Below, piece by piece: positions 1,010 to 18,107 of a DNA stretch of 19,208 nt; within the stretch, counting starts at the first letter, position 1; the number at the start of each line of letters is the position of its first letter. The stretch comes from a bacterium (lineage in GTDB: Bacteria; SZUA-182; DTGQ01): the NCBI GenBank assembly GCA_023512255.1, contig JAILZY010000066.1:1-19208 (forward strand), written 5' to 3'. The notes beneath the pieces were generated by a model that worked only from the letters and a program-made list of their open reading frames with translations, was not told where the DNA came from and made no database searches. A program made the translations under genes and the position numbers.

Positions 1010-1057
1010 GGTTAAAAACATATGGTGAGAAATCTCATCTAATCCAGGCAGTATGGC

Positions 1058-1978
1058 CTAATCCAGGCAGGATGACCGCCCCAGGAATTTTGAAAACAGA
1101 CATAAGGCATCCTGCGGAGTAATTTCACCGTCATGATTGACATCCGCACAAGCCGAGCAGGCGCCTCTTTCGAGATAGCACAGGAAGACAAGCAAGGCAT
1201 CCTGTGGAGTGATCTCGCCATCCCCGTTAAGATCGCCATCGCAGGTCTCAAGGTAGCCTTCGGCCAGGGATTCATTGACATGGACCACAGCCTCGTTGGT
1301 GTGCTCATAGGTGTAGCCTTCATAGATTGGGTAGGTTTTTTCAGCCACCTCGCTCTGTGAGGTGATGGTTGTGCCTGCCGGAACATAGACATGGTCGGGC
1401 AGCTCAACCCCGACGATGGTGCAGCCTGGCTCGATGACGCAGTGTGAGCCGACCTTGGCGTTGAAGATCAGAGACTGCATGGCGATGAAAGTATCGTGGC
1501 CGACATAGGCTGGGCCATGCACCTGAGCCTGATGAGCCAGAGAGACCCTCTCGCCAATATAGACCGAGTAGCCGCTGCCATCGCCTACCCTCTCACCCTG
1601 GGCATTGAACTGCCGACCAGCTTTGAACTCCCAGTCGCCATGCTCTTTTGAAAGCTCTTCGGTCTCAAGACCGTGCAGCACAACGCCATCTTGGATATTG
1701 GCCGCCTCACCCACAAATATAGGCTGGCCCTCATCCCCACGAACCGAGGCCCCAGGGGAAACCATAATCTGCCCCTCCAGGGTAACATTGCCAATCACCG
1801 AGGCCAAGGGATGAACAAAGGTGGTGGCGGCAATGTGCGGGGAGGACACAGTGCGGCTAAAATCAGTGGCCACATTGGGGGCAATATGACCCATACCGGC
1901 GAAGGCGGTGCCTGCCAGCAGGGCAGTTATTATTACCAGATGAGAGAAAAAAACCTGCCATTTTTTTTGCTGAATCAT
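1058..1978 (-). CDS. Exported Cam-type gamma-carbonic anhydrase with C-terminal dockerin-like domain
   Basis: A 306-residue protein predicted to interconvert CO2 and bicarbonate outside the cytoplasm. Residues 1-27 form a signal peptide ending AFA. Residues about 32-245 match the left-handed beta-helix gamma class, closest in sequence pattern to Methanosarcina Cam. Visible are Arg80, Asp82 and Glu83, Asn94 and Gln96, the metal-ligand histidines His102, His149 and His154, and a proton-shuttle-like Glu105 three residues after the first ligand. The HTNEAVV stretch near 226-232 also matches Cam. The loop between the first and second His is about 11 residues longer than in Cam. Residues 247-301 hold two dockerin-like calcium loops (DxNxDGxIxxxD at 249-260 and 279-290) with extra cysteines. 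The start ATG follows AAGGAG at 5-nt spacing. No cohesin gene is in the window. Confidence 0.92.
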   Translation of the reverse strand: MIQQKKWQVFFSHLVIITALLAGTAFAGMGHIAPNVATDFSRTVSSPHIAATTFVHPLASVIGNVTLEGQIMVSPGASVRGDEGQPIFVGEAANIQDGVVLHGLETEELSKEHGDWEFKAGRQFNAQGERVGDGSGYSVYIGERVSLAHQAQVHGPAYVGHDTFIAMQSLIFNAKVGSHCVIEPGCTIVGVELPDHVYVPAGTTITSQSEVAEKTYPIYEGYTYEHTNEAVVHVNESLAEGYLETCDGDLNGDGEITPQDALLVFLCYLERGACSACADVNHDGEITPQDALCLFSKFLGRSSCLD

Positions 1979-2660
1979 AGCTACTCCTTGTAACTCCCTG
2001 TAACCGTTATTAATTAATACGATTCCTTAATTGTAAGGGGGATCAAAAATAAAAACAAAAACAAACAATAAACAATAAAAAAATTTATTTTCGCCTGGTT
2101 GAGATTAAAAATTTTCATCCGTTGGAGAGATCGGCTGATGGATTTTCAAATTAGGAAAGGGACAGGGCGCAGGATGAAACGCAAGATTTTAATCCTCAAA
2201 TTCTATCCTCAATCCTGCTGATACTTACAGGGGAAAATATAGTGGAGCCAACAGCGCGAAGAGAAGGAGGAGGTGCAGGAGGCAGTAAAAATAGAGCTGG
2301 GGAAAATAATAGTTTTCTTAAAGGGAAAATGGCCCAAAACCACACCTAGTCTTTGACCGCGATAATCAAAAAAATAGCTGCTTCTTCAAGGGGAAAATGA
2401 TCGATTGAGTGGGTGAATTTTGCACCTTCGTACCATGACCTTCCTACCGTGGGAGAGCTTGACAACCTGGGGAAAGCTTGACAACAACCTGTTATTACCA
2501 TCAACCTTTCTCTTTTTAATTTCCTAAAAAGAAAAACTCGATTCGCCACCACCTCCTTAAAGTTTAGTAGGATCTACGGACTAAAATGGACTAAAAAGTA
2601 TTCCCCCCTTGATCTATTTCGCCCCTTTGAGTTATTGTTTTCATTAAGCCAGCCTCGGGG

Positions 2661-2693
2661 CTTTTAGTGATTCTATCGCCAAGTGCGAGAGCA
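2661..2693 (+). repeat. Degenerate direct copy of the inverted-repeat arm
   Basis: CTTTTAGTGATTCTATCGCC followed by AAGTGCGAGAGCA resembles the left arm of the neighbouring element (2719-2752: GTCTTAGTGGTCTTTTCGCT, AAGTGCGTAACACA). The offset is 58 bases. It may be the remnant of an older insertion of the same element. Confidence 0.45.
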
Positions 2694-2698
2694 TATTC

Positions 2699-2864
2699 AG
2701 TTACATCATCAAGCAAGAGGTCTTAGTGGTCTTTTCGCTAAGTGCGTAACACAAGTGCGCAGCGGACAATTAGGCTATCAATTGTAGGGACGGCCTTAAG
2801 GGGGCCGCCCAAATTGCGCACTTTGTTAGCGAAAGAACCACTTAGACCTTTTAAGTTAACTGCA
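2699..2864. repeat. MITE-like inverted repeat element with internal hairpin
   Basis: The left arm at 2715-2760 (AGGTCTTAGTGGT, then CTTTTCGCTAA, then AAGTGCGC) is mirrored by the right arm at 2816-2852 (GCGCACTTTGTTAGCGAAAG, then ACCACTTAGACCT), with small gaps. CAGTTA/TAACTG at the outer edges (2699-2704 and 2859-2864) extends the symmetry. The core holds a CAATT...AATTG pair (2767-2784) and a GGGACGGCC/GGGGCCGCCC hairpin (2788-2810). There is no transposase inside. Target-site duplication was not clear. Confidence 0.6.
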
Positions 2865-2969
2865 TTGTCATTACTATACTTTACTTTATTTTTTAACTGA
2901 AAGTCAAAGGTTTTCGATTTTATCTGTCTATTTTGTAACCATGAATAACTTTGAAGTATCGGCTTTTAT

Positions 2970-2998
2970 TTGACTTTTTCTACAAGCTATGTTACAAT
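2970..2998 (+). promoter_or_regulatory. Sigma-70 promoter for the PHP-lipid A gene cluster
   Basis: TTGACT (2970-2975) and TACAAT (2993-2998) are separated by 17 bases. Each box has five of six consensus bases. Transcription would start near 3005 and give a leader of about 84 nt before the ATG at 3089. Confidence 0.68.
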
Positions 2999-3018
2999 AA
3001 TATCACATTAGGTAGACA

Positions 3019-3037
3019 GCAAGAGAAACTCTCTTGC
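3019..3037 (+). other. Small stem-loop in the leader RNA
   Basis: GCAAGAG (3019-3025) and CTCTTGC (3031-3037) form a perfect 7-bp stem with a 5-nt loop, just downstream of the predicted start of transcription. No T-run follows, so it is not a terminator. It could stabilise the leader or bind a protein. Confidence 0.5.
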
Positions 3038-3088
3038 GGATAATCAAGTGAATACAACTGAATAGATGGAAAGATATCAAAAATCCTG

Positions 3089-3742
3089 ATGATTGACCTT
3101 CATACCCATTCTTTTTTCAGCGATGGTGTTCTTCTTCCGGCAGAATTGATCAGGCGTGCTAGGGTGAAGGGCTGCATAGCCGTAGGCATCACCGATCATG
3201 TTGATCAATCCAATTTTGATTTCGTAATCCCGAAAATCATTACGGCCTGCACTTGGTATTCTGAATCCCATGGGATTGTGGCTATTCCGGGGGTTGAAAT
3301 TACGCATGTTCCTCCACAGAACATTCCCAGTCTGGTAAGAGAGGCGCGAGAGCTTGGTGCCCGGCTGGTAATTGTGCATGGAGAGACGCTGGTTGAGCCG
3401 GTGATGCCTGGTACAAATCTTGCTGCTCTTCAGGCGGATATTGACATCTTGGCTCATCCTGGTCTTATCTCAGAGGAGGAGGTGGCCCTGGCCAGGGATA
3501 AATCAATCTATCTGGAGATCACAGCCAGGAGCGGGCATTCATTGACTAACGGCTATGTTGCCCGCATCAGCCAGAAGATAGGCGCGGGACTGGTGATCAA
3601 TACCGATGCCCATGAGCCTTCAGACCTGATTGATCAGGATATGGCCTGGAAAATAGGTTTAGGGGCTGGAATGATCAAAGAGGAGATCGAAATAGCCTTT
3701 GATAACGCCAAAAGGATCCTGGACCGCTGCCTGGGGAAGTAA
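3089..3742 (+). CDS. PHP domain phosphoesterase
   Basis: A 217-residue single-domain PHP protein, a metal-dependent phosphoesterase related to histidinol phosphatase and the polymerase III alpha PHP domain. The metal-binding series is complete: DLHTHS (His5, His7), Asp12, TDH (Asp36, His37), Glu70 (GVEIT), His97 (VHGE), His123 (AHPG), and NTDAH (Asp173, His175). The substrate cannot be told from sequence. Start ATG 3089 has no strong Shine-Dalgarno; GGAAAG lies about 15 bases upstream and no better in-frame start was found. It is first in a same-strand run that leads into fabZ-lpxA-lpxI, so it may be co-transcribed with envelope genes. Confidence 0.88.
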   Translation: MIDLHTHSFFSDGVLLPAELIRRARVKGCIAVGITDHVDQSNFDFVIPKIITACTWYSESHGIVAIPGVEITHVPPQNIPSLVREARELGARLVIVHGETLVEPVMPGTNLAALQADIDILAHPGLISEEEVALARDKSIYLEITARSGHSLTNGYVARISQKIGAGLVINTDAHEPSDLIDQDMAWKIGLGAGMIKEEIEIAFDNAKRILDRCLGK

Positions 3743-3796
3743 ACCGGCAAAAGTGAACGGTGATCTTGAGAGTAACTTTGAGGGAGAGCAATAAGC

Positions 3797-4777
3797 ATGC
3801 AGATTAAAAAGAAATTGACGCGAAAGCAGTTTTTAACTCAAGATGATGAAGTTATGTCATTTATGAAGAGGGCGCTAATTTGGGTCAGAGAAAATGTCAA
3901 CCTAATTATTTTCGCAGCTGTGGGCCTTGTGATCGTGGTGGCTGTCATCTGGGGTGTCCGCTACCAGAGAGAGTCGAACCTCAGAAATTCAGCCAAGCTC
4001 CTGGCCCAAGCACGAGCAGACTACTACGCAAGGGTTGAAGGAGAGCCCACCGCGTTTGATGATCACCAGAGTGAAAAGAGCTTTAAAAATGCCAGGGAAA
4101 AGTATACGGCGGCTATGAATACCCTGGATCAGGTTTTGAAGTTATATCCCTCTTCAGCCAGCGCAGATGATGCGCTTTTCCTCAAGGCGGAAGCCTACTA
4201 TAATCTAGGAGAATATGATAAGGCTATCCTTACCTACAAGCAATACCTTGAAAAGTATAAAACCAAAGGGGCACACAGTATAGAGGCTCTATCTTCTATT
4301 GGCTACAGCTACGAAGCCAAAGGAGAGTATAAGGAAGCGGCCCGGGCTTTCCAAAAGATTCTTGATGATTATCAGGGGTATTTGCTCCGTGACAATATCT
4401 ACATGGAATTGGGCAGATGCTATGAACAGATGAAAGAGTTTAGCAAAGCCAAGGAGGCTTATCAGAAGTTAGTAGCAAACTTTTCTGATTCTCCGCTGCT
4501 CAAGGATGCTCAGAATAAATTGAATCTCTTAAACTCAAGCTCTGCTGCTTCGGCAGATTCGCATCCCTCACTGCCGCAAGCTTTAAATACCAATCAGACT
4601 TCAAATACCAATCAGACTGCTCCCGCGCAGACCAATCAGGCTGCTCCTGCAGAAGGGGAGGCGGCCTCTTCAGCCAGCCAGCTTTCTGGTGAGCCTGCCG
4701 CGGCGGCTCAGGTTTCTCATGGCAGTGAGCAAAATAGTGTTACTTCAGGCCAGAATGAGCCCCCTAAAGGGCATTAA
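3797..4777 (+). CDS. Membrane-anchored TPR protein with low-complexity tail
   Basis: A 326-residue protein. A basic N-terminus is followed by one transmembrane helix (residues about 35-54, LIIFAAVGLVIVVAVIWGV), so the rest probably lies in the periplasm. Residues about 60-115 are helical. Residues about 118-245 hold four tetratricopeptide-like repeats (for example DDALFLKAEAYYNLGEYDKA and YMELGRCYEQMKEFSKAKEA). The architecture is like YfgM or periplasmic tol-pal/BamD-type TPR proteins, so a scaffold in envelope assembly is inferred. Residues 247-326 are a Ser/Ala/Gln/Asn-rich disordered tail containing an 18-bp in-frame tandem repeat encoding NTNQTS (4585-4618). The start follows AGGGAGAG with 8-nt spacing. 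Confidence 0.8.
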   Translation: MQIKKKLTRKQFLTQDDEVMSFMKRALIWVRENVNLIIFAAVGLVIVVAVIWGVRYQRESNLRNSAKLLAQARADYYARVEGEPTAFDDHQSEKSFKNAREKYTAAMNTLDQVLKLYPSSASADDALFLKAEAYYNLGEYDKAILTYKQYLEKYKTKGAHSIEALSSIGYSYEAKGEYKEAARAFQKILDDYQGYLLRDNIYMELGRCYEQMKEFSKAKEAYQKLVANFSDSPLLKDAQNKLNLLNSSSAASADSHPSLPQALNTNQTSNTNQTAPAQTNQAAPAEGEAASSASQLSGEPAAAAQVSHGSEQNSVTSGQNEPPKGH

Positions 4778-4798
4778 GGCTAAGGCATTAAGGCTTAA
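4771..4798 (+). repeat. 14-bp tandem duplication over the TPR gene stop codon
   Basis: GCATTAAGGCTAAG (4771-4784) is followed immediately by GCATTAAGGCTTAA (4785-4798). The first copy contains the stop codon TAA (4775-4777) of the upstream gene. The second copy lies in the 32-nt spacer before the next start. Confidence 0.75.
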
Positions 4799-4809
4799 TC
4801 TGAAACATC

Positions 4810-5361
4810 ATGCAATGGCTTCAATTGATTAAGACGAATATCCCCTGGGGGAAGAGAGAAAGGATGATAGTCAGGGGCATCCTCATCGCTCTTCCCTTGA
4901 TCTTGGTTATCCAGTTTTATCTTTTGCCGAGTATAGTCAAGATCAAGGTTCTTGCTCAATCCATCCCTAAAAGGAAAGAGGATCTGAAGGAGCTACGTAG
5001 GCTGAGGGATGAGCTCTTTGAGCTGCGTAGAGAAACAGCGCGGGTAAATCAAGCCATCCAGCAGCGAGGTCAGGATTTTGAACTGCTCGCTTTCCTCGAA
5101 GAACTGGCCAAGAAGTGCAAGATCGAGGACAAGATAGTTTCGATGCGGCCAGTGTCTAATCTTTCTTCACCACCAAACGAGAAAATTATTGAGATAACTA
5201 TTGATGGTCTGGTAACTGAAGAGCTAACCAAGTATCTTTACGAGATTGAAAATTCAACTAAGCTTCTTTCTATTAAAAAAACAACGATTCGATCAAATCT
5301 TGGTCCTGAGAAGTCTCTTGATGTTTCTCTTCAGGTTTCAACATTAATAGATACGATCTAA
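4810..5361 (+). CDS. PilO/GspM-like membrane protein
   Basis: A 183-residue bitopic protein. It has a short cytoplasmic N-terminus, one transmembrane helix (about 23-42, ILIALPLILVIQFYLLP), a charged coiled-coil stretch (about 50-88) and a compact C-terminal domain (about 90-183). The C-terminal domain has the alternating beta pattern (EIITIDGLVTEELTKYLYEIENS-type region) of the ferredoxin-like fold in type IV pilus PilO and type II secretion GspM. No pilM, pilN, pilQ or gsp genes accompany it, so either it is an orphan or the machinery lies elsewhere. The ribosome site is weak; translation may couple to the TPR gene 32 nt upstream. The family call is from architecture and residue pattern, not a profile search. 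Confidence 0.68.
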   Translation: MQWLQLIKTNIPWGKRERMIVRGILIALPLILVIQFYLLPSIVKIKVLAQSIPKRKEDLKELRRLRDELFELRRETARVNQAIQQRGQDFELLAFLEELAKKCKIEDKIVSMRPVSNLSSPPNEKIIEITIDGLVTEELTKYLYEIENSTKLLSIKKTTIRSNLGPEKSLDVSLQVSTLIDTI

Positions 5362-5377
5362 AATAGATACGATCTAA
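5346..5377 (+). repeat. Perfect 16-bp tandem duplication including a stop codon
   Basis: AATAGATACGATCTAA occurs at 5346-5361 and again at 5362-5377, directly adjacent and identical. The first copy ends with the stop codon of the PilO/GspM-like gene (5359-5361); the second copy repeats that stop out of frame. Confidence 0.9.
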
Positions 5378-5418
5378 TCCAATTTCCCCGGAAGATCTTT
5401 CATAAGGAGAAACAAAAA

Positions 5419-5901
5419 ATGCTTGACATCAAGGCTATCTTGGAGTATTTACCCCATCGATATCCATTTCTGCTGATTGACAGGGTAATAGAATTTGAAG
5501 CCAAAAAGAGGATTGTGGCTATCAAAAACGTTACCATAAACGAACCTTTTTTCACCGGACATTTTCCCGGCAATCCAGTTATGCCTGGGGTGCTGATCAT
5601 AGAGGCCCTGGCTCAAGCCGGTGGAGTCTTGTGTCTGGCCTCGATGGGGGTCAAAAAACATAGTCTTGTTTATCTCATGGGTCTTGATAAGGTGAAATTT
5701 CGCGCTCCGGTTACGCCTGGGGATCAGCTTCGGCTGGAGGTTTGTGCCCTCAGGACTCATCAGAGAGGATGGAAAATGGGCGCTCAGGCTTTTGTAGGAT
5801 CAAATTTAGTAGCCGAAGGGATGATTTTGGCCAGGGCTGGCGGTGATCAACCAGAGACGAGCAGTGTTGAATCCGCTGCCTGCTGTGATATTGAACAGTG
5901 A
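5419..5901 (+). CDS. fabZ: 3-hydroxyacyl-ACP dehydratase FabZ
   Basis: A 160-residue hot-dog-fold dehydratase that converts (3R)-hydroxyacyl-ACP to trans-2-enoyl-ACP in the cytoplasm. It competes with LpxA for the same hydroxyacyl-ACP pool. The N-terminal motif [13 protein letters not shown] (11-23) and the catalytic stretch [17 protein letters not shown] (47-63) give His48 and Glu62. [18 protein letters not shown] is also typical. Length is about 10 residues over many family members because of a Ser/Cys-rich tail (150-160). Start ATG 5419 follows AAGGAG at 9-nt spacing. The stop TGA is close to the lpxA start, supporting translation from one message. Confidence 0.96.
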
Positions 5902-5915
5902 GGGACAGCCAGAGA

Positions 5916-6686
5916 ATGAACATCCACAAGACAGCTATCGTACATCCTAAGGCTCAGATTGAAGAGAATGTAACCATTGGTCCTTATTGCATCGTCGGCG
6001 AACATGTCATTATCCACAGCGGAACTATTCTTGAGGCTCAGGTTTTTCTTGACGGCTGGACCGAGATTGGAAGAGATTGCCATATTTTCCCATTTGCTAC
6101 CTTGGGTACTGTACCGCAGGATTTGAAGTTTCAGGGCGAGAAAAGTGAATTGAAGATAGGGCAGGGGACCGTGATTCGTGAAGGAGTAACTGCCCACCGC
6201 GGCACGAGCGGAGGGGGAGGTATTACCACCATTGGGGATGGATGCCTGCTGATGGCCTATGCCCATGTTGCTCATGACTGTCATGTAGGCAATCATGTTA
6301 TTCTGGCCAATGGGATTGCCATGGCCGGCCATGTTACCATTGAAGACCATGCCTCTGTCGGTGGACTGACCGCTATCCATCAGTTCACCAGAATTGGCCG
6401 CTATGCTTATGTCGGGGGTGCATCAGCCGTATCCAAAGATGTACCTCCCTACGGTATGGCTGCCGGGAACCGGACTAAGCTGTATGGAGTGAACTCGATC
6501 GGGTTGCAGCGAAAGGGTTTTTCTCAAGAAGCGATCGAGAACATCAAGAAGGCTTATCGCCTGCTGTTATCATCACACCTTAATGTTAGTCAGGCAATTG
6601 CCCGCATCGAGGCTGAAATTGATTCACCAGAAGTTAGATATCTAGTTGATTTTATTAAAAATTCAGACCGAGGAATTTGTAAGTAA
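5916..6686 (+). CDS. lpxA: Acyl-ACP--UDP-N-acetylglucosamine O-acyltransferase LpxA
   Basis: First committed enzyme of lipid A synthesis, transferring a 3-hydroxyacyl chain from ACP to UDP-GlcNAc (or its 3-amino analogue). The protein is 256 residues from ATG 5916, which has GAGGGA about 10 nt upstream. A GTG at 5898 overlapping the fabZ stop would add six residues and is less likely. Hexapeptide repeats of a left-handed beta-helix fill most of the chain. The catalytic His is in AHVAHDCHVGN (His120). The C-terminal helical part carries the LpxA signature GVNSIGLQRKGFSQEAI. LpxD is excluded by this C-terminus and the length. Confidence 0.95.
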   Translation: MNIHKTAIVHPKAQIEENVTIGPYCIVGEHVIIHSGTILEAQVFLDGWTEIGRDCHIFPFATLGTVPQDLKFQGEKSELKIGQGTVIREGVTAHRGTSGGGGITTIGDGCLLMAYAHVAHDCHVGNHVILANGIAMAGHVTIEDHASVGGLTAIHQFTRIGRYAYVGGASAVSKDVPPYGMAAGNRTKLYGVNSIGLQRKGFSQEAIENIKKAYRLLLSSHLNVSQAIARIEAEIDSPEVRYLVDFIKNSDRGICK

Positions 6687-6725
6687 TCATCAGGTCAAAA
6701 GGCGCTCGGGAGGGAAGATGAGAGC

Positions 6726-7565
6726 ATGGAAAGTTTGGGACTTATTGCCGGCAGCGGCCAATTTCCTATCATTGTGGCCAATGAGGCCAAAAAGCAGGGG
6801 CTTCGGGTCGTGGCTGTCGGGATCAGCAGAATCACCTCACCAAATCTGCTCTTTTCTGTAGACAAGCTCTCCTGGATCGAACTGGGAAATCTCAGCAAAC
6901 TTATTAAAGAATTTAAGGCTGAAGGGGTTAACCAGGCCATCATGGCCGGCCAGATTCGGCACGTAAACCTTTTTCGGGACATTAAGTTTGATTGGCGGAC
7001 CTTGCTTTTGTTGAGGCGGCTGATTAATAAAAAAGCCGATACGATTCTCGGAGCTGTGGCCAATGAATTGGAGCGGGAGGGAATTCATATTCTGGAGTCA
7101 ACAAAATATATTACCCATCTGCTGCCAGCACCCGGAGTCCTTACCAAGAGGAAACCCTCAAGGAAAGAAATAAAAGATATAGAGTTTGGATTTGAAATTG
7201 CCAAGAAAATAGCTGGCTCAGATATCGGACAGACCGTAGTGGTTAAAGACCTGACCGTCGTGGCTGTGGAAGCAATGGAAGGAACTGATGAAACCATACG
7301 AAGAGGTGGTCAAATAGGCGGTGGGAAAACCGTGGTGGTCAAGGTGAGTAAGCCTAATCAGGATATGAGGTTTGATGTGCCGGTGATCGGTTTGGGGACA
7401 ATCAACTCTTTGAAGGAAGCCAAAGCAGCGGTGCTGGCTATTGAGTCGGGCAAAACTCTATTTTTTGACCAGCAGACGGCTATTGCCGAGGCCGATGCGG
7501 AGAAAATCTGCCTGGTTTCAGTTAGGATAGGCCAGAGTGGAAGGATAGAGTTTGCTGATAAATAG
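6726..7565 (+). CDS. lpxI: UDP-2,3-diacylglucosamine diphosphatase LpxI
   Basis: A 279-residue DUF1009-family enzyme that hydrolyses UDP-2,3-diacylglucosamine to lipid X and UMP. It is the LpxH replacement found in alpha- and deltaproteobacteria and many other phyla. Features are an N-terminal LGLIAGSGQFPIIVA (4-18), IMAGQIRHVNLF (72-83), the family core QTVVVKDLTVVAVEAMEGTD (169-188), and MRFDVPVIG (214-222), whose Asp217 corresponds to the catalytic Asp of Caulobacter LpxI. It starts 39 nt after lpxA with a purine-rich GGGAGGGAAG upstream. Neither lpxB nor lpxC/D is in the window. Confidence 0.94.
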   Translation: MESLGLIAGSGQFPIIVANEAKKQGLRVVAVGISRITSPNLLFSVDKLSWIELGNLSKLIKEFKAEGVNQAIMAGQIRHVNLFRDIKFDWRTLLLLRRLINKKADTILGAVANELEREGIHILESTKYITHLLPAPGVLTKRKPSRKEIKDIEFGFEIAKKIAGSDIGQTVVVKDLTVVAVEAMEGTDETIRRGGQIGGGKTVVVKVSKPNQDMRFDVPVIGLGTINSLKEAKAAVLAIESGKTLFFDQQTAIAEADAEKICLVSVRIGQSGRIEFADK

Positions 7566-7578
7566 TGGGGAAAAATCA

Positions 7579-8606: not shown

Positions 8607-8630
8607 GTACTCTCCTTTTTTAATCCCAGT

Positions 8631-10276: not shown

Positions 10277-10852
10277 TTAAAATTCCACTTTCGGAACCTG
10301 CTTTTCCTCCTCCGGCATTTGATAATATGTGCCCTTTTCAAAGCCAAACAATCCAGCAAAAACCCGATCTGGAAATTTAGCGATCGCCGTGTTATACTCT
10401 TTAACTCGCTCATTATACCGCATCCTTTCTACTGCCAGGCGGTTTTCTGTTCCGGCCAGCTCATCCATAAGCCGGTTGAAGCTCTCATTGGCCTTCAGCT
10501 CAGGATACCTCTCAAGGATAACCAGTAATCTTCCAAGAGCAGTTTCCACTGCCTGAGCTCCTTGAATCTTCTCAGGGATGGTTGTCGCCCCGGCCAGTTT
10601 TGCCCTGGCCTCAGCGATCTTGATAAATATTTCCTTCTCATGAGCAGCATACCCTTTGACCGTATTCACCAGATTAGGAATAAGATCATTCCTTCTCTTG
10701 AGCTGATTATCAACCTGGGCCCAGGCTCCGTCGATATTTTCCCTCATAGTTACCAATTTATTATAACGCGATATTCCCCAACCAACGAGAATGAGAAAAA
10801 GGATAGCTATGGCAGCCAAAACCGCCAGGAAAATGCTAAGACCTCGCTTCAT
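10277..10852 (-). CDS. lemA: LemA family protein
   Basis: A 191-residue LemA protein: a single N-terminal membrane helix (about 5-26) followed by a long antiparallel helical bundle facing the other side. Family signatures are RYNKLVTMRENIDGAWAQVD, LKRRNDLIPNLVNTVKGYA, the ELKANESFNRLMDELAGTENR stretch, YNTAIAKFPD and the C-terminal FEKGTYYQ. LemA proteins are poorly understood envelope proteins, often next to TPM-domain genes as here. ATG 10852 is preferred because AGGAGG lies 5 nt upstream; an upstream ATG at 10870 would place that site inside the gene. It is the last gene of a three-gene unit, 101 nt after the TPM gene. Confidence 0.95.
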   Translation of the reverse strand: MKRGLSIFLAVLAAIAILFLILVGWGISRYNKLVTMRENIDGAWAQVDNQLKRRNDLIPNLVNTVKGYAAHEKEIFIKIAEARAKLAGATTIPEKIQGAQAVETALGRLLVILERYPELKANESFNRLMDELAGTENRLAVERMRYNERVKEYNTAIAKFPDRVFAGLFGFEKGTYYQMPEEEKQVPKVEF

Positions 10853-10917
10853 CCTTGCCTCCTGATGCAATTAGTTATTAACTTGATTACTTAACTAGCC
10901 GCCTACCTGCTGTTATT

Positions 10918-10948
10918 AGTCTGTCCGCTTACCGAGCAGTCTGCCCGC
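10918..10948 (-). repeat. Short direct repeat downstream of the TPM gene
   Basis: AGTCTGTCCGC (10918-10928) and AGTCTGCCCGC (10938-10948) differ at one base and are offset by 20. They lie a few bases beyond the TPM stop codon (10954-10956). Confidence 0.55.
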
Positions 10949-10953
10949 TCTGC

Positions 10954-11844
10954 CTACCATCTACCCGTAGCTCCGCCGCCTCCGCTCGATCCTCCGCCAA
11001 ACCCACCAAATCCACCGCCACCCCAGCCGCCGAATCCCCCACTGCTCCAGCCGCCGAATCCTCCTCCACGAAATCCTCCACCTCCCCTGTGGCCCCAGTA
11101 GCCACCCCCTGGTGGGCCGAAAAACCAATACCACAACAGCCCGCTTTTCCATCCCAAGAGAAGCACTATAAAAAGCAGGATAAGGATAAATTCCAGGCCG
11201 TCTGAATCAGACTCAGGGGTCTTTTGATCTTCTGCCTCCTCAGGAGCTACTTTTGGCAAGCCGCTTATTTGGACCTGATACTGCCGGGCAATCCGTGAGA
11301 TAACTGCCTCTGTTCCAGCTACAAGCCCCTGACCATACTTCCCCTTCTTGAAGAAGGGGATCATATATTTTCGGATGATCTCCCCAACCAGGCCGTCGGG
11401 TAAAATTTCCTCTAGCCCGTAGCCGACCTCGATCCTAACCTCACGCTCCCGCAAGGCCAGCAGGATAAGAACCCCATTATCCTTGCCCTTGACCCCAATG
11501 CCCCACTTCTCAAAGAGTTTGACCGCGTAGAGATTGATCTCGTAGGGAGCCACGCTCTCCACGGTAACTACGGCAATCTCTACTGTGGTTTTCTGCTGAA
11601 GCTCCTGAATTAAGCGGCTGAGAGTCTCCTTGTCTTGAGGAGAGAGAAGCTTTGCCTCGTCATTGACATAGCCTGTGTACTGAGGAAATGGAATCTCCTC
11701 TTGCTCAGAATCAATCCGCGGGGATAGAGCAAAGGCCGAAGACTCTTTTCCCCCTGTGGCCACCAGACACCTAAGACCTAGCAGGAAAGACACTAGGGCG
11801 GCCACTATCAGCAGTCGTTTTTTCTTGCTGTACAGAGCGGTCAT
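10954..11844 (-). CDS. TPM domain protein (YgcG family) with glycine-rich tail
   Basis: A 296-residue membrane protein. A signal or anchor helix lies at about 10-28. A TPM (DUF477) domain spans about 57-192, with family motifs GYVNDEAKLLS (58-68), TVEIAVVTVESV (87-98), LFEKWGIGVKGKDNGVLILLAL (110-131) and VGYGLEEILPD (140-150). A transmembrane helix covers about 218-243, followed by a Gly-rich tail (246-296) of GGGF/GGW repeats. The order signal-TPM-TM-Gly tail is the usual one for LemA-linked TPM proteins. ATG 11844 overlaps the previous gene's stop by four bases (ATGA), so translation is coupled. Confidence 0.93.
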   Translation of the reverse strand: MTALYSKKKRLLIVAALVSFLLGLRCLVATGGKESSAFALSPRIDSEQEEIPFPQYTGYVNDEAKLLSPQDKETLSRLIQELQQKTTVEIAVVTVESVAPYEINLYAVKLFEKWGIGVKGKDNGVLILLALREREVRIEVGYGLEEILPDGLVGEIIRKYMIPFFKKGKYGQGLVAGTEAVISRIARQYQVQISGLPKVAPEEAEDQKTPESDSDGLEFILILLFIVLLLGWKSGLLWYWFFGPPGGGYWGHRGGGGFRGGGFGGWSSGGFGGWGGGGFGGFGGGSSGGGGATGRW

Positions 11845-12599
11845 GAGATCACCGGCAGGGCATCGACTTTTTGAGCCAGCTCATGAAGGCTGCAAAGATA
11901 GGCATTTAGGAGGCTCTCAAGCTCTGGTTTTTTCACCCCGCTCCTTCTTCCTTCCTTTAGGTGCAGCACTCTCATGAATACCTCAGTCTGAAGCTTAAGC
12001 CGATCGGCAATTTCCTTAATGACCCCCTCTCTTGACTTGGGAGGTGCGCCTCCCTGAAGACGGATGAGGCTGCGCAAGACCGGCATAAGAGCGGTCAGGG
12101 AATGGACCAGCAGTTGCTCGATCGGTTTTTGCTGAAGCCCTATTTCCAGGTAAGATTGGCGGATTCTGATCAGTTTGCCCTTAATTTCCTGCTCACACTG
12201 AAGACGCAGGTTGGACTGATTGATAGATAACTTTTGAAAGATATCCTCTCCGTAGACAGTAACATGCTGTTCCTTGATCTCAATGAATTCAATGGGGAAA
12301 GTATCGCATGAGGAAAGAATATGCTCCTCGGTAAGAAAGAGGGGCGCGGGGATTTTTTCCTTTCGGCCGCGGGCGATTACCTTTAGGCTGTCTTTTAGGG
12401 TAGAAAAGGGGAGATCAGCAAAGATAAACAGCAGATTGATATTCGACCGCTCAGGGATATAGTCTTCTCCGGCAGCGCTGCCATAGACAGTGGCTGATTT
12501 TAAGTTTTCTTGGTGAATTTGAATCATGCTCTGGCAGTAGCGGGCCACTGTCAGTCGAATACTGGGGGGCAGTAGATCGAGATTTTTTAGCTCACTCAC
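11841..12599 (-). CDS. Nucleotidyltransferase-fold protein with altered catalytic site
   Basis: A 252-residue cytoplasmic protein. Residues about 36-60 (ATVYGSAAGEDYIPERSNINLLFIF) have the hydrophobic-GS...SDIDL pattern of the polymerase-beta/aminoglycoside nucleotidyltransferase superfamily. The two metal-binding Asp residues are replaced by Asn53 and Asn55 (codons AAT and AAT). The remaining 190 residues are mostly helical, with no family I can name. GTG start 12599 follows GAGGAG at 7 nt. It is the first gene of the unit with TPM and lemA, sharing an ATGA overlap with the TPM gene. It could be a non-catalytic nucleotide-binding or regulatory protein. The superfamily call rests on a short motif. 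Confidence 0.62.
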   Translation of the reverse strand: MSELKNLDLLPPSIRLTVARYCQSMIQIHQENLKSATVYGSAAGEDYIPERSNINLLFIFADLPFSTLKDSLKVIARGRKEKIPAPLFLTEEHILSSCDTFPIEFIEIKEQHVTVYGEDIFQKLSINQSNLRLQCEQEIKGKLIRIRQSYLEIGLQQKPIEQLLVHSLTALMPVLRSLIRLQGGAPPKSREGVIKEIADRLKLQTEVFMRVLHLKEGRRSGVKKPELESLLNAYLCSLHELAQKVDALPVIS

Positions 12600-12660
12600 C
12601 CTTTTTCTCCTCTTGGGTTACTAGCGATATCAGTATAGAAAAAAAGATAAAATCAGAGAG

Positions 12661-12690
12661 ATTTTATTATTTATCAATCCAATTTGTCAA
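12661..12690 (-). promoter_or_regulatory. Sigma-70 promoter for the nucleotidyltransferase-TPM-lemA unit
   Basis: On the minus strand a consensus TTGACA (12690-12685) is 18 bases from TAAAAT (12666-12661). Transcription would start near 12654 and give a leader of about 55 nt to the GTG start at 12599. Confidence 0.62.
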
Positions 12691-12768
12691 CTGAAAGTAT
12701 ACCCTTTTTCTAAAACTTTTAATAACTCAGCCTTTAATAACCCTTGGGGAATGTAGGTAGGAAAAGTT

Positions 12769-12825
12769 TAAAGTTTTAGGAGGATGGTTTGGAAGGAACC
12801 CTTTTTCAAAAGGGTTCCTTCCAAA
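12769..12825 (+). repeat. REP-like hairpin family, copy 2
   Basis: The box TAAAGTTTTAGGA (12769-12781) is followed by an 18-bp perfect stem, TTTGGAAGGAACCCTTTT (12788-12805) with its complement (12808-12825), closed by a 2-nt loop. Box and central 20 nt match the element at 8546-8606, which lies in the opposite orientation. Here it lies between divergent promoters, where a transcription terminator would have no gene to end. Confidence 0.65.
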
Positions 12826-12851
12826 ATTTAGTGTGGCGATATTTTCCCTGA

Positions 12852-12879
12852 TTGCCCGAAAACAGATGTAGTCTACGAT
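12852..12879 (+). promoter_or_regulatory. Weak candidate promoter for the GAF-hydrogenase operon
   Basis: TTGCCC (12852-12857) and TACGAT (12874-12879) are 16 bases apart, each with four of six consensus bases. The start of transcription would be about 19 nt before the ATG at 12905. The assignment is tentative; a regulated promoter of another kind is equally possible. Confidence 0.28.
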
Positions 12880-12904
12880 TTTATTGGATAAGAAAGGGCG
12901 TCAT

Positions 12905-13957
12905 ATGCAAGAGGTCGAAATAAAATACCGAGATGAGTTTTGCCAGCGATGCGGGGAAATCTCCTGTACTTTGAATTTTGATGAGGCCCTGCAAACCATT
13001 CTGGACAACATTGATCGCTGTCTTGATGTTCAGGCCTCTGCCATTCATCTGGTAGATCCTGGCTCACAAACCATAGCTCCTGTGGCTGCCAGGAACCTAT
13101 CGTCTGACTATATCAGCCGATATCAGCTTAGGCTTGAGGAGAACCCTATTGAGCAGGAGGTATTAAAGGGCAAGGTCATCACTATCGCTGATGCCAGGGA
13201 AAACCCAACCTACCAGAAGTTAGCCGAATCAGAGGGCATCCGCTCCATACTCTGTGCTCCGCTCAAGGCTAAAGAGCGGATCATCGGCAGTCTCTGGCTT
13301 TTTACCCGTACGGTGCGCTCATTCGATCCGGGCGAGCTCAGCTACGTTACTACCTTGGCTAGTCAGGCCGGAGTGGTACTGAGCAATGCTAAATTGTACC
13401 AAAGCCTCCATGCCCTGTCGGAAATAGGTCAAGCCCTCACCTCTCGTCTTGATTTGAGCGAGGTTCTGCAAATGATTGTCGAAAAGGCTACCCGGCTCAT
13501 GGGTGGCAAGGGAGCCTCGATCCTGTTGATAGCCCGACAAGGGGAGACTCTGGAGGTTGGGGCTACCTGGGGCCTAAGTGAAAAATTTTTGAAAAAAGGG
13601 CCGATAGAGATTGAAAAATCTCTCCGCGAATGCCTGGACCATCTGCTAGTAATCCCCGATGTTTCCAAGAGCCAAGATGTGCAGTATCCAGAGCATCTGG
13701 CCCAAGAGGGCATCCGCTCCATTCTCTGCACGCCCCTGACCGTCAAGGAACGGCCTATCGGGACGCTTAGAGTGTATCTTGCTTATCCTAGGGAATTTTC
13801 TGCTGAGGACCTTGAGCTGTTTCAGATCTTGGCTGATTTTGGCGGCATTGCTATTGAAAATGCCCGATTATTCAACCACATAAAGAGAGATTACGAAGAC
13901 CTGACCCAAGATGTATGGCAATGGTACGATTGGGGTAAAAGGGCACCAAGTATATAA
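12905..13957 (+). CDS. Tandem GAF domain protein
   Basis: A 350-residue soluble protein made of two GAF domains (about 22-168 and 184-325), small-molecule or redox-sensing modules. Both carry the same core phrase, EGIRSILCxPL then KERxIGxL (near 110-130 and 268-288), so they are internal duplicates. No kinase, GGDEF, HTH or AAA+ output domain follows; the chain ends in a short tail DVWQWYDWGKR. N-terminal cysteines at 13, 16 and 21 precede the first domain. ATG 12905 has GAAAGGG about 7 nt upstream, whereas a TTG at 12884 lacks one. The gene ends 12 nt before hydB and is probably in the hydrogenase operon, suggesting a sensory or partner role in H2 metabolism. Confidence 0.87.
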   Translation: MQEVEIKYRDEFCQRCGEISCTLNFDEALQTILDNIDRCLDVQASAIHLVDPGSQTIAPVAARNLSSDYISRYQLRLEENPIEQEVLKGKVITIADARENPTYQKLAESEGIRSILCAPLKAKERIIGSLWLFTRTVRSFDPGELSYVTTLASQAGVVLSNAKLYQSLHALSEIGQALTSRLDLSEVLQMIVEKATRLMGGKGASILLIARQGETLEVGATWGLSEKFLKKGPIEIEKSLRECLDHLLVIPDVSKSQDVQYPEHLAQEGIRSILCTPLTVKERPIGTLRVYLAYPREFSAEDLELFQILADFGGIAIENARLFNHIKRDYEDLTQDVWQWYDWGKRAPSI

Positions 13958-13968
13958 CGAGTATATAA
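13949..13968 (+). repeat. Direct repeat over the GAF gene stop codon
   Basis: AGTATATAA occurs at 13949-13957, ending in the stop codon of the GAF gene, and again at 13960-13968 just before the hydB start. It leaves hydB with little recognisable Shine-Dalgarno sequence. Confidence 0.65.
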
Positions 13969-13969
13969 T

Positions 13970-15046
13970 ATGCAGGAGCAGGCTTTTATCATTGAAAAAG
14001 ATCAGCTTTTCTCCTGGCTGGAAAAATTGCAGCAGGAATTTCTCCTCATTGGCCCCAAAAAGCAAGAAGAAGGTGGTGGGGTGGCTTTCCTCCCTATTAA
14101 ATCCGTTCAGGAGCTTGATTTAAATTATACCCTAACCATGATGGGGCCTCAAATTTATCTCTATCCTCCTGAGGAGACAATTTGCACCGTTTGGCGGAAA
14201 GATGACGGGGGATTTGAGGTCAGGATGAGGGAAGAGGTTCCTAGGCAGGTGCTATTTGCGGTTCGCTCCTGTGATCTTCAGGCCATCTTAGTGCTGGATA
14301 AGGTTTTCTTAAGGCCGGGGCTTGAAGATCGCAACTATCGGCTTTGGCGTGAAAACACGCTGCTTATAGGCCTTCACTGCTCATCGATTCATCCCCAGTG
14401 TTTTTGCGCTTCTATGGGTAGTGGTCCGTTTTTTGAGCCAAGGCAGGGCTATGACCTCTTGCTCACGGATCTTGGCCAGATAGGGTATTTAGCTGAAACT
14501 TTAGGGGAGCGGGCTTCGAGCCTTCTTGCAGCGCTAAAGGCTCAGCCAGCTACCCAGACTCATTTTGATCAAAAGAGGCAAATTGGCCACTACCTGCTGA
14601 CTCAATTTCAAAAGAGCATCGATACCACACACCTGGTTGAGGTTCTGTTGAAAAATCAAGATCATCCGGTTTGGTCACAGACAGCGGATCAGCGCTGTTT
14701 GAGCTGCACCAATTGCACTAAGGTTTGTCCGACCTGCTTTTGCTATAACACCAAGGATACGGTCAGCTTTGACCTCGTGCGGTGTGAGCGGACAAGGTAT
14801 AAAGACTCATGTCAAGAGCTTCATTTTGCCCAGGTGCATGGGGCAAATTTTCGCTCAACGAGATCTTCTCGGCTTCGGCAGTTTGTTACTCATAAGCTAG
14901 CTACCTGGGTAGAGCAGTTTGGCTGCTTTGGCTGTGTCGGCTGTGGTCGGTGCATGAGCTGGTGTCCGACTGGGATTGATCTTACACAGATGGCTAAGGA
15001 AATCATGGTTTCAGAGGGGCTCTATGATCGGCGGCGGCAAACATGA
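13970..15046 (+). CDS. hydB: Hydrogenase iron-sulfur (beta) subunit, HydB-like
   Basis: A 358-residue electron-transfer subunit of a group 3b-type (sulfhydrogenase-like) [NiFe]-hydrogenase. The N-terminal about 200 residues match the domain shared with the anaerobic sulfite reductase A / HydB family, including FAVRSCDLQAILVLDKVFL (96-114) and LLIGLHCSSIHPQCFC (131-146). Two [4Fe-4S] motifs follow: Cys243, 246, 249, 253 (CLSCTNCTKVCP) and Cys322, 325, 328, 332 (CVGCGRCMSWCP). In this family the subunit links the flavin subunit to the catalytic pair. The ribosome site is weak, so translation may depend on the GAF gene upstream. The gene order B-G-D-A is that of Pyrococcus sulfhydrogenase. Confidence 0.9.
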   Translation: MQEQAFIIEKDQLFSWLEKLQQEFLLIGPKKQEEGGGVAFLPIKSVQELDLNYTLTMMGPQIYLYPPEETICTVWRKDDGGFEVRMREEVPRQVLFAVRSCDLQAILVLDKVFLRPGLEDRNYRLWRENTLLIGLHCSSIHPQCFCASMGSGPFFEPRQGYDLLLTDLGQIGYLAETLGERASSLLAALKAQPATQTHFDQKRQIGHYLLTQFQKSIDTTHLVEVLLKNQDHPVWSQTADQRCLSCTNCTKVCPTCFCYNTKDTVSFDLVRCERTRYKDSCQELHFAQVHGANFRSTRSSRLRQFVTHKLATWVEQFGCFGCVGCGRCMSWCPTGIDLTQMAKEIMVSEGLYDRRRQT

Positions 15047-15107
15047 TGGGGAAAGCATGGTGAGGGCAAGCATGATGAGTATGAGTACATGATGACATGA
15101 TGAGTAT
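15042..15107 (+). repeat. Short repeats after the hydB stop codon
   Basis: CATGATG/CATGGTG motifs begin at 15042, 15057, 15071, 15088 and 15096. The longest pair is CATGATGAGTAT at 15071-15082 and 15096-15107. The first motif contains the hydB stop TGA (15044-15046). Several ATG codons arise in this spacer, which complicates the choice of the hydG start. Confidence 0.65.
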
Positions 15108-15129
15108 AGGAGAGGGGGATTTAGGGCTT

Positions 15130-15957
15130 ATGGATAATCCGCACTATCGAGTTGCTTGTCTTCTGGATGTTCAGCCTGAGACAGAGGATACAAGCTCTTA
15201 TCTGTTTGTCCTAGAGGATGGAGGGGATTTTCAGTTCTCCCCTGGACAATTCAATATGCTTGGCCTGCCAGGTACAGAGGAGGCAGCCATATCCTTTAGC
15301 TCTCTGGCCGCGGCAGGCAGTGGCCGCTTTACTCATACTATCCGCCGGGTAGGAAATGTGACTAGGCTGATTGGGGAGCTTGAGATCGGCCAGAGAGTGA
15401 TGGTCAGGGGGCCATTTGGGCGTGGCTGGCCAATCGAGCAAGCCGTGGGTTGTGATGTTTTGCTGGTTGCCGGCGGGCTTGGACTGGCACCGCTCAGGCC
15501 CTTTCTTCTCTACATGTTGGAGAATAGGGGCCAGATCAGAAATCTGGTTTTGATCTTCGGCGCCAGAACACTGGATGATATGATTTTTCAAATAGATCTG
15601 GCTAGGTGGCAGGAGCAGGATGAGATAAGTACAATCTATTGCGTTGATCATCTGACTAGGGAATCTAATTTGCGACTTCGCACCGGGCTGGTAACTCGGT
15701 TCATGGATGGACTTGATCTTGATCCTCGCAATACCCTGGCCTGCATTTGCGGTCCGGAGATCATGATGCGGTTTGTGGCTCGCAATCTCGCGCTGCAAGG
15801 ATATCGGCAGGATCGAATTTACCTTTCAATGGAAAGGAGAATGCGCTGCGGTACGGCCCACTGCGGCCATTGTCAGATTGGGGCTAAGTTTGTCTGCCAG
15901 GATGGGCCGGTTTTCTCTTATCCTGATATTGCCCGATTTGCAGATACGGCTCTATAG
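15130..15957 (+). CDS. hydG: Hydrogenase FAD/NAD(P)-binding (gamma) subunit, HydG-like
   Basis: A 275-residue flavoprotein of the ferredoxin-NADP reductase superfamily, the NAD(P)H-reactive subunit of the hydrogenase. Counting from ATG 15130, an FAD-binding beta-barrel covers about 1-98 (FSPGQFNMLGLP; EAAISFSS in place of the usual RxYS), and a nucleotide-binding domain begins VLLVAGGLGLAPLRPFL (about 110-126). A C-terminal [2Fe-2S] site has Cys240, 245, 248 and 256 in CGTAHCGHCQIGAKFVCQDGP. This arrangement is like dihydroorotate dehydrogenase PyrK and Pyrococcus HydG. In-frame ATGs at 15097 and 15100 would add 11 or 10 residues but lack a ribosome site; AGGG precedes 15130. Specificity for NAD versus NADP was not determined. 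Confidence 0.9.
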   Translation: MDNPHYRVACLLDVQPETEDTSSYLFVLEDGGDFQFSPGQFNMLGLPGTEEAAISFSSLAAAGSGRFTHTIRRVGNVTRLIGELEIGQRVMVRGPFGRGWPIEQAVGCDVLLVAGGLGLAPLRPFLLYMLENRGQIRNLVLIFGARTLDDMIFQIDLARWQEQDEISTIYCVDHLTRESNLRLRTGLVTRFMDGLDLDPRNTLACICGPEIMMRFVARNLALQGYRQDRIYLSMERRMRCGTAHCGHCQIGAKFVCQDGPVFSYPDIARFADTAL

Positions 15958-15993
15958 GATGAGGGAAAGCAAAAAAGAGGGAGCGTTTCGATC

Positions 15994-16791
15994 ATGTTAG
16001 TGAAAAAGAAGAAGCTGCGGCTAGGTGTCTTTAAGTATAGCTGCTGTGCTGGGTGTGAATTTGAGCTTATCTATTTTCAGAAGTACATTCGGGAAACTTT
16101 TGACAATGTGGACATTATCTATTTTCGCATGGCCAAGAGCGGGGGATCAGAGGAAGGCCCCTTTGACTTGGTCCTGATTGATGGAGCAATTACTGAGGCC
16201 TGGCAGGTCGACCAGTTGAAGAGGGTTCGCCAGGTAGCTAGGTTTTTGCTTCCTATCGGCTCCTGTGCAGTCAATGGGGGAATTCCAGCCATTAAGAATC
16301 ACACCTCGGAGCTTGATATGGAAAAGAGGGTCTATCAGGATATTACCCACGTCCATTCGATAAAAACTCATCCAGTGGATGATTATGTCCAGGTAGATGG
16401 CTACATCAAAGGATGCCCTATGGGCAGAAAAGACCTGTATGAGGCCTTCACCTCGCTGCTCCTTGGCAAAAGACCAAGTTTTGTCAACTATTCAGTTTGC
16501 GTAGAGTGCAAGATCAAGGGAAATACCTGCGTGTTGATATCCTATGGCTGGCCATGCATGGGGCCGGTTACTAACGGAGGCTGTGGGGCGCTGTGTCCTT
16601 CTTATAATCGCGCCTGTTATGCCTGCTGGGGACCGATGGAAGATGCCAATGCGCCTGCTCTGGCTAGGCAGTTTGAGAAAATGGGCCTCGCCCCGGATGA
16701 TATATTTCGCAGATTCACCCAGTATGGATCAACAAAACCTGAATTTCGCAGGGGAGCAGAACTCTATGGATCGACAACCCAACCCTTTTAA
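15994..16791 (+). CDS. hydD: [NiFe]-hydrogenase small (delta) subunit, HydD-like
   Basis: A 265-residue subunit of the NADH:ubiquinone oxidoreductase 20 kDa family, carrying iron-sulfur clusters next to the NiFe subunit. The proximal cluster ligands are Cys18 and Cys21 (CCAGCE), Cys91 (GSCAVNGG) and Cys141 (GCPMG). Eight more cysteines at 169, 172, 179, 188, 197, 201, 208 and 211 can bind the medial and distal clusters of group 3 enzymes. Without an N-terminal twin-arginine signal the enzyme should be cytosolic. ATG 15994 follows GAGGGAG at 10 nt. The last 26 bases overlap the large-subunit gene. Confidence 0.94.
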   Translation: MLVKKKKLRLGVFKYSCCAGCEFELIYFQKYIRETFDNVDIIYFRMAKSGGSEEGPFDLVLIDGAITEAWQVDQLKRVRQVARFLLPIGSCAVNGGIPAIKNHTSELDMEKRVYQDITHVHSIKTHPVDDYVQVDGYIKGCPMGRKDLYEAFTSLLLGKRPSFVNYSVCVECKIKGNTCVLISYGWPCMGPVTNGGCGALCPSYNRACYACWGPMEDANAPALARQFEKMGLAPDDIFRRFTQYGSTKPEFRRGAELYGSTTQPF

Positions 16792-18073
16792 CTCCAAAAC
16801 CATATCTATTGATTATCTGGCTCGGACCGAGGGCGAGAGCGGTCTTATGGTCAAGATCGCGGAGGGCGGAGATGTTCAGGAAATTAAGCTGAAAATTTTC
16901 GAGCCGCCTCGCTTCTTCGAAGGCTTCCTAGTCGGCCGAAAATACAGCGAGGCAGGGGATATCGTCTCCCGGATCTGTGGAATCTGCCCGATCTCTCATC
17001 TGACCACCTCTCTTCAGGCGGTTGAGGATGCTATGGGTATTATGCCAAGCCCTCAAACTAGACGGCTGCGCAGGCTCATGTGCGTGTCTCAGGTGGTGGC
17101 CAGCCACATTATTCACCTCTACATGTTTGTCCTGCCTGACTACTTCGGCTATCCTGGCTTTGCCGAGATGATGCCCGAATTCAAGAAGGAGACCGATTAT
17201 CTTCTGGCCATGAAGGAGGCCGTAAACAATGTGGCTGAGAAGATCGGCGGACGCCCCCTGAATCCTGTTTCTATGGTAGTCAATGGCTTTACCAAGCTGC
17301 CGGACAGGGAAACCATGCTCTCTCTGGCTGAGGGGATCAGAGCTGTTTTGCCAATGGCTTATGAGACCGCCATGATGATGAGCCGCCTGCCTTATCCAGA
17401 TCTTGAGACTGAGGGCGAATTTGCGGCCCTCCGAAAAGAAGCGAGCGGGGAAGAGGAAAGGGGCGAATATGCCTTTAATGAAGGGCGTCTTGTTTCCTCA
17501 GGTGGGCTAAACCTCGACATCCACGACTATTTTGCCGCTTTTTGCGAACAAGAGCAGGGATATGCCCAAGCCAAAAAATCTTTCCTTAAGACTGGAAATA
17601 CTTATATGTCAGGTGCCTTGGCTAGGGTTAATCTCAAATTCGATCAGCTCCATGATGAGACCAAGAAGCTGGCTCAGGAGATAGGCTTTAGCCGACCAGA
17701 CAGAAATCCCTTCCATAATAATCTGGCTCAGGCACTTGAAATCTATGATGGAATGCTTGAGAGTATCAGGCTTCTTTCAGAAATTGATCCCAAAAAGGAA
17801 GTGCCTTCGGTGGATATCCGGGCAGGGGAGGGGGTAGCCATTACCGAAGCGCCAAGGGGCCTTCTCATGCACCGCTATGTCATCGACCGACGGGGAGTGA
17901 TTGAGGAGGCAAATCTAATTACGCCCACCTCGCAGAATTTTGCCAATATCGAGCGGGATCTTCACCTGCTGGCCGCGCGGTATGGCCAAAGTGACGACCA
18001 TGAGGCACTTCGGCTAAAATGCGAGCAGCTCATCCGAGCCTACGATCCGTGCTTTTCCTGCTCGGTGCATTGA
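16766..18073 (+). CDS. hydA: [NiFe]-hydrogenase large (alpha) subunit, HydA-like
   Basis: A 435-residue catalytic subunit that holds the NiFe(CN)2CO centre and splits or forms H2. The N-terminal metal motif RICGICPISH supplies Cys71 and Cys74 with His78, and the C-terminal motif DPCFSC supplies Cys429 and Cys432. Glu22 lies in the conserved RTEGE. ATG 16766 is chosen because GGGGAG lies 9 nt upstream and the sequence from there matches the usual N-terminus; the frame is open further upstream (to 16544) only because it overlaps hydD. The chain stops directly after His435 (CSVH, then TGA), so it lacks the C-terminal extension that the maturation endopeptidase removes in most families. Confidence 0.95.
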   Translation: MDRQPNPFNSKTISIDYLARTEGESGLMVKIAEGGDVQEIKLKIFEPPRFFEGFLVGRKYSEAGDIVSRICGICPISHLTTSLQAVEDAMGIMPSPQTRRLRRLMCVSQVVASHIIHLYMFVLPDYFGYPGFAEMMPEFKKETDYLLAMKEAVNNVAEKIGGRPLNPVSMVVNGFTKLPDRETMLSLAEGIRAVLPMAYETAMMMSRLPYPDLETEGEFAALRKEASGEEERGEYAFNEGRLVSSGGLNLDIHDYFAAFCEQEQGYAQAKKSFLKTGNTYMSGALARVNLKFDQLHDETKKLAQEIGFSRPDRNPFHNNLAQALEIYDGMLESIRLLSEIDPKKEVPSVDIRAGEGVAITEAPRGLLMHRYVIDRRGVIEEANLITPTSQNFANIERDLHLLAARYGQSDDHEALRLKCEQLIRAYDPCFSCSVH

Positions 18074-18107
18074 GGGTTTTGCTGCCTTTTCCTGCTAAAG
18101 TGCATTG
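18052..18107 (+). repeat. Imperfect tandem duplication over the hydA stop codon
   Basis: CTTTTCCTGCTCGGTGCATTG (18052-18072) encodes the end of HydA and reaches into its stop. It recurs at 18086-18107 as CTTTTCCTGCTAAAG plus TGCATTG. A weaker third copy, CTCTTTCTGCTCCGATG, begins near 18120. Offset is about 34 bases. Confidence 0.7.

Follow-up and report, generated by a model that had tools for sequence, protein, structure and literature searches.

What creates short direct repeats at the ends of unrelated genes in a bacterial chromosome? The question was raised by a 19,208-bp stretch of DNA (the window; GenBank assembly GCA_023512255.1, contig JAILZY010000066.1, positions 1 to 19,208) from a bacterium of the GTDB lineage SZUA-182; DTGQ01. 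A first-pass annotation had described short duplications that include the stop codon at several gene ends in the window and had suggested an active microduplication process, fail-safe second stops, or a trait of the lineage as the cause. The repeats could be located, with small corrections to their coordinates. In 4.4 kb of the window, comprising the noncoding DNA and 25 bp of gene ends, exact repeats of at least 9, 10, 11, and 12 bp were found at 17, 12, 9, and 7 loci, respectively, compared to means of 0.99, 0.29, 0.09, and 0.01 in dinucleotide shuffles. Genes were called with a simple script in place of a standard annotator, and the gene names used here are the sequence-only labels of the first-pass annotation. 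Our reading, to which we assign a probability of roughly 60%, is that a head-to-tail duplication process specific to the lineage and driven by topoisomerase I produced the repeats, most of which are about 10 to 20 bp long.

The abundance of the repeats was assessed in 973 kb of the 3.83-Mb, 172-contig assembly to which the window belongs (G000), including 159 kb of intergenic DNA, and in parts of the genomes of relatives. These included three members of the same family (G001 to G003), of which G001 is a congener representing a sister species. The intergenic DNA of G000 contained 224 close direct repeats of at least 11 bp, compared to 3.8 in shuffled sequence. The excess over shuffles was 47-fold in the first 302 kb of G000, 41-fold in G001, and 7- and 3.5-fold in the two remaining family members, and it was near zero in the other genomes sampled. 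Counting only duplications whose offset is not a multiple of three, a measure that does not depend on gene calls, gave 23 frameshifting duplications per 100 kb in G000, 6 to 13 in the three family relatives, and 0 to 5 in the other samples, some of which were small; the latter came from the same class, Acidobacteriota, Gammaproteobacteria, Poribacteria, Planctomycetota, and other groups. The duplication trait belongs to the family and is strongest in the species of G000.

Comparison with the sister species showed that individual duplications are recent enough to be absent from it. G001 is 78% identical to G000 at the DNA level across the window region, and the sites are single copy in G001 wherever they can be aligned, an alignment that the first-pass annotation had proposed. 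The PilO-like gene of G001 ends in a single copy with TCC directly after it, the HydA-like gene also ends in a single copy, and the counterpart of a triplicated sequence at position 10190 is present once. No second copy was seen at the end of the G001 tetratricopeptide repeat (TPR) orthologue, where the alignment is gappy. These single-copy sites, together with the restriction of the excess to one lineage, bear out the suggestions of an active process and of a lineage trait. Further, perfect and decayed duplications occur side by side in G000, indicating that the process has been ongoing for some time. Repeats of another style were seen at four G001 loci (L036, L046, L047, and L050), where heptamer-like units (CTGACTC and ACTGACC) form arrays of three or more copies, unlike the two-copy duplications of G000.

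The positions of the duplications relative to reading frames carry the imprint of selection. Among repeats within coding sequence in the G000 sample, 65 of 71 offsets were multiples of three, whereas intergenic offsets were spread evenly over the three remainders (67, 76, and 80). This combination indicates duplication followed by purifying selection and excludes assembly error as a general cause. Repeats spanning stop codons numbered 33, compared to 11.9 expected from the intergenic rate; the excess persisted when the window was left out (29 versus 11.6) and in fresh sequence alone (9 versus 4.4). Start codons were spanned by 7 repeats, compared to 12.1 expected, and the local repeat rate peaked 0 to 20 bp after stops and was lowest 0 to 10 bp before starts. 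The stop codon sits in the first copy in 29 of 34 stop cases, so that the gene is left untouched. A stop-spanning duplication would thus persist like an intergenic one, because the first copy retains the stop. The first-pass focus on stop codons holds to the extent that repeats are moderately enriched there, but most are purely intergenic: the two- to threefold enrichment at gene ends is real but secondary, and the process acts across all noncoding DNA.

We examined the lengths and junctions of the duplications. The lengths of perfect copies are continuous, mostly 7 to 20 bp, with a sharp drop beyond about 20 bp. Among 92 perfect noncoding duplications of at least 11 bp, 60, 15, 8, and 5 had junction homologies of 0, 1, 2, and 3 bp, respectively, compared to 48.6, 25.5, 10.7, and 4.4 at random sites. 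The duplications are head to tail and independent of preexisting repeats, with junction homology equal to or below chance. Because zero homology is the commonest class, we conclude that the duplication process uses no microhomology.

A sequence signature was present at the boundaries. We compared 73 perfect, zero-homology, noncoding duplications of at least 10 bp from G000 with 2,000 permutations within the same intergenic segments and found a C 4 nucleotides outside each of the two boundaries, on the strand that leads into the boundary in question (C at −4). This C was present at the first boundary in 64 instances, compared to 28.5 expected (z = 7.5), and at both boundaries on one strand in 28, compared to 6.9 expected (z = 8.3); a score for the motif TCNTTW was likewise elevated (z = 6.3). 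None of the 2,000 permutations reached any of these values. The fitted strand-specific context was T(−5) C(−4) W(−3) T T ^ W, where the caret marks the boundary. In the 10- to 15-bp class (51 events), the outer C was found in 54 of 102 cases (53% versus 20%; P = 7e−14), and the log-likelihood was −171.5 for the null model, −136.7 for independent cuts on opposite strands, and −131.3 for two sites on the same strand (with C frequencies of 81% and 54%). Single-cut and pure opposite-strand models fit more poorly than the same-strand model. C-C pairs were raised at flank position 4 only, and overall matching at that position was ordinary, so the motif does not stem from hidden or extended imperfect homology. 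At the PilO-like gene in the window, a 16-bp sequence over the TAA stop codon is perfectly duplicated in exact copies (5346 to 5377, plus strand), and in the boundary contexts, aaCATT^AATAGATACGATCTAA^TCC, each of the two boundaries has a C at −4 on the plus strand.

The junctions of the 10- to 15-bp class match the cleavage preference of topoisomerase I. Bacterial topoisomerase I prefers C at −4 of its cleavage site (PMC7587558). Topo-Seq in Escherichia coli gave the in vivo motif TCNTTA/T, with the 5′ end held covalently by the enzyme and the 3′ end free, and in weakly expressed transcription units, cleavage was found to become more frequent toward the end (PMC9352719). Type IA cleavage sites resemble the G000 junctions in having a C and a T at −4 and −5, respectively, relative to the break and an AT-rich, TCNTT^W-like context; they differ in that the cleavage is reversible and was mapped biochemically, whereas in G000 the sites are deduced from the genomic junctions of duplications (PMC9352719; PMC7587558).

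G000 contains a single match to a type IA topoisomerase, TopA (around C62:32158-33450), so an extra enzyme of this type was rejected as the cause. The part of TopA that was examined has an intact ARRILDR motif, consistent with retention of C recognition. We take this motif to be equivalent to E. coli R168/R169/R173 on the basis of spacing and family knowledge rather than alignment. The intact motif also argues against a change of the E. coli R168C type. In the family, G002 has two type IA matches (C38 and C58), of which only the C58 copy fits the ARRILDR-type pattern, and other members have one. Two further candidates were rejected: loss of the DNA polymerase I flap nuclease, since PF02739 and PF00476 are both found in one 906-amino-acid frame in G000, and loss of SbcD, which is present in G000 and G001.

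A mechanism based on these features might proceed as follows. After nicking a strand at CNNN^, TopA would stay covalently bound to the 5′ end, and the 3′-OH would be free. A polymerase could then extend the free 3′ end by 10 to 15 nucleotides, displacing the enzyme-bound strand. Where the new 3′ end again had a C at −4, TopA would reseal it to the 5′ end that it holds, and the next round of replication would turn the inserted loop into a tandem duplication. At a stop codon, such an event would leave the gene intact.

Several observations weigh against this reading. The R168 equivalent appears unchanged, and no causal change was identified in TopA; moreover, all of the other bacteria sampled have a type IA topoisomerase and lack the trait. 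Both the role of TopA and the extension step are what we infer, the polymerase step purely so. The motif was found post hoc, with statistics from one genome, although its base and position equal a known enzyme preference; G001 to G003 yielded only 8 usable duplications, 3 of which have the C pair (P = 0.018). The gap between same-strand and opposite-strand geometries in the 10- to 15-bp class is only 5.4 log units. The C pairs show no strand bias with respect to transcription (12 coding and 16 template). Finally, duplications of 16 to 24 bp (n = 22) and 8 to 9 bp (n = 32) did not show the motif, and a second process may exist. For the perfect duplications of 16 to 22 bp, the lack of the C(−4) signature suggests either that they arise in another way or that the first process is limited in size.

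Other explanations account for parts of these data. Two nearby nicks on opposite strands, made by topoisomerase I or by another nuclease preferring C at −4, could create a staggered break with 5′ overhangs that is filled in and joined bluntly. This would yield zero junction homology and an outer C at −4 on both sides, but we consider it unlikely: the inner C's are enriched too and are paired with outer C's on the same strand (odds ratio, 2.3; P = 0.02), the 5.4 log units favor the same-strand model, and the family lacks Ku. Ku (PF02735) was absent from all of the genomes searched for it (G000 to G009), which rules out Ku/LigD end joining. Still less probable is ordinary replication slippage or template misalignment that happens to be unusually frequent in the lineage. 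Slippage yields tandem duplications, some junctions have 2 to 5 bp of homology, and part of the 16- to 22-bp class may have arisen in this way. However, slippage needs short flanking repeats, whereas most junctions have no homology at all (60 of 92, versus 48.6 by chance), and slippage does not predict the paired C's at −4.

The excess at stop codons (33 versus 11.9), which is the result of the comparison with controls that the first-pass annotation had outlined, would be expected if the repeats were selected as fail-safe or regulatory elements at gene ends. We regard this as highly improbable. Most of the repeats are away from stops, and only 8 of the 33 stop-spanning cases place the second stop in frame, which speaks against the earlier suggestion of fail-safe second stops. 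The offsets show no preference for frame (8, 13, and 12 with remainders of 0, 1, and 2), the units have no sequence in common, the copies decay, and second copies are absent from the orthologous gene ends of G001 that can be aligned. The earlier remark that the six offsets include no multiple of three is uninformative given these remainders, as its chance probability is (2/3)^6 = 0.09. At the far end of the scale, with almost no likelihood, are target-site duplications from excised transposons and assembly artifacts. Perfect duplications with no spacer could be excision scars, but their lengths form a continuum between about 7 and 20 bp, and a given transposase generates a single fixed length; an artifact could neither preserve the coding frame (65 of 71) nor carry a boundary motif.

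Among the closest known systems to the topoisomerase I-driven process proposed here is the E. coli topA R168C mutator, which generates de novo head-to-tail tandem duplications of 2 to 19 bp, similar in length to those of G000, that are independent of repeats (Bachar et al., NAR 2020; PMC6954433). That work called the origin of tandem repeats from nonrepeated DNA unknown; its hotspots had no match to known cleavage motifs, and the mechanism was left open (PMC6954433). The E. coli system depends on a laboratory point mutation. In the natural lineage of G000, by contrast, duplications have become fixed by the hundreds, their junctions carry the C(−4) signature, and the ARRILDR motif of TopA is intact. 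Top2-dependent duplications in yeast and human tumors are also small, arise from a topoisomerase cleavage complex, and need no prior repeat, but they involve a type II enzyme, a 2- to 4-bp stagger between opposite strands, and nonhomologous end joining, in contrast to the 10- to 15-bp length, same-strand type IA signature, and lack of Ku seen here (reviewed in PMC11477040). The TAACTGA direct repeats of Beggiatoaceae are similarly short, abundant, and intergenic, but they consist of one fixed sequence, whereas each duplication in G000 copies its own local sequence (PMC4679880).

The individual repeats in the window vary in their state of preservation. Two were exactly as first described: the PilO-like duplication (5346/5362; 16 of 16 matches, offset 16) and a 13-bp repeat over the stop of a gamma carbonic anhydrase-like gene (1039 to 1070, minus strand; 1039/1058, 13 of 13 matches, offset 19). 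Others lay near the positions originally given. These are a slightly decayed 14-bp duplication over the stop of the TPR gene (4770 to 4797, plus strand; 4770/4784, 12 bp exact, offset 14) and three intergenic loci: a triplicated GGACATTCCCTA (12 bp and then 10 bp; 10190 to 10225, with copies at 10190/10202/10216), an 11-bp exact repeat with an offset of 19 (2456 to 2485; 2456/2475), and a 10-bp exact repeat with an offset of 14 (38 to 61; 38/52). Two reported cases were found to be weaker, namely, a 9-bp exact repeat with an offset of 11 over the stop of the GAF gene (13949 to 13968, plus strand; 13949/13960) and an 11-bp exact repeat with an offset of 34 over the TGA of the HydA-like gene (18052 to 18096, plus strand; 18052/18086). 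Also present are a 12-bp exact repeat with an offset of 25 that extends to the start of the HydG-like gene (15071 to 15107, plus strand), a perfect intergenic 9-bp tandem duplication of TATGAAGCC (259 to 276), a decayed intergenic 14-bp duplication (9462 to 9491), and an 18-bp coding duplication inside the TPR gene that keeps the frame (4585 to 4618, plus strand).

Two of the repeats originally listed are real sequence features but belong to dispersed families and are not independent duplications. The pair placed at 8517/8539 at the end of the oxidoreductase gene was corrected to 8523/8546 (16 bp exact, offset 23); it spans 8523 to 8561 within a dispersed, terminator-like hairpin element of the AAGGGGAAAACCC family (8517 to 8590, plus strand), of which no trace was found at the oxidoreductase gene end in G001. 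Two related hairpin families (AAGGGGAAAACCCTTTT... and TTGGAAGGAACCCTTTT...), represented in the window at 8517 to 8590 and 12781 to 12830, have dozens of copies and are REP- or terminator-like; they were not found in the sampled relatives. The repeat at 19142 to 19186 is part of a dispersed element of approximately 65 bp (19136 to 19200; AGGGTTTATGGTTGTTCTGATAT...) that lies close to the end of the contig and contains a 23-bp internal duplication. This element gave 39 BLAST hits in the 973 kb of G000 and no match in the sampled DNA of G001 and G002. Seven of the hits are at most 250 bp from a locus end, including the end of the window, so the repeat may break the assembly. Elsewhere in the window, the gamma carbonic anhydrase-like protein (1058 to 1978, minus strand) probably has a signal peptide, and its C-terminal part contains two calcium-binding repeats that resemble a dockerin (GDLNGDGEITPQDALLVFL...ADVNHDGEITPQDALCLF). 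A noncoding stretch at 18276 to 18334 is 93% identical over 59 bp to a nonsyntenic site in G001 (contig C29), while the surrounding intergenic DNA is not conserved; it is possibly a small RNA or a mobile element.

The hundreds of natural events in this genome made visible a junction signature that points to an enzyme, a same-strand geometry, and a size window, whereas the duplications in E. coli were not linked to cleavage sites. Whether topoisomerase I acts in a natural lineage as a chronic generator of tandem repeats, through cleavage at C(−4), synthesis of 10 to 15 nucleotides, and resealing on the same strand, is to us an evenly balanced proposition; on this view, some thousand duplications would have reshaped intergenic DNA and gene ends. 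If it is true, some wild lineages carry a chronic load of topoisomerase-linked duplications, with effects on the evolution of gene ends, of the DNA between genes, and of in-frame repeats in proteins.

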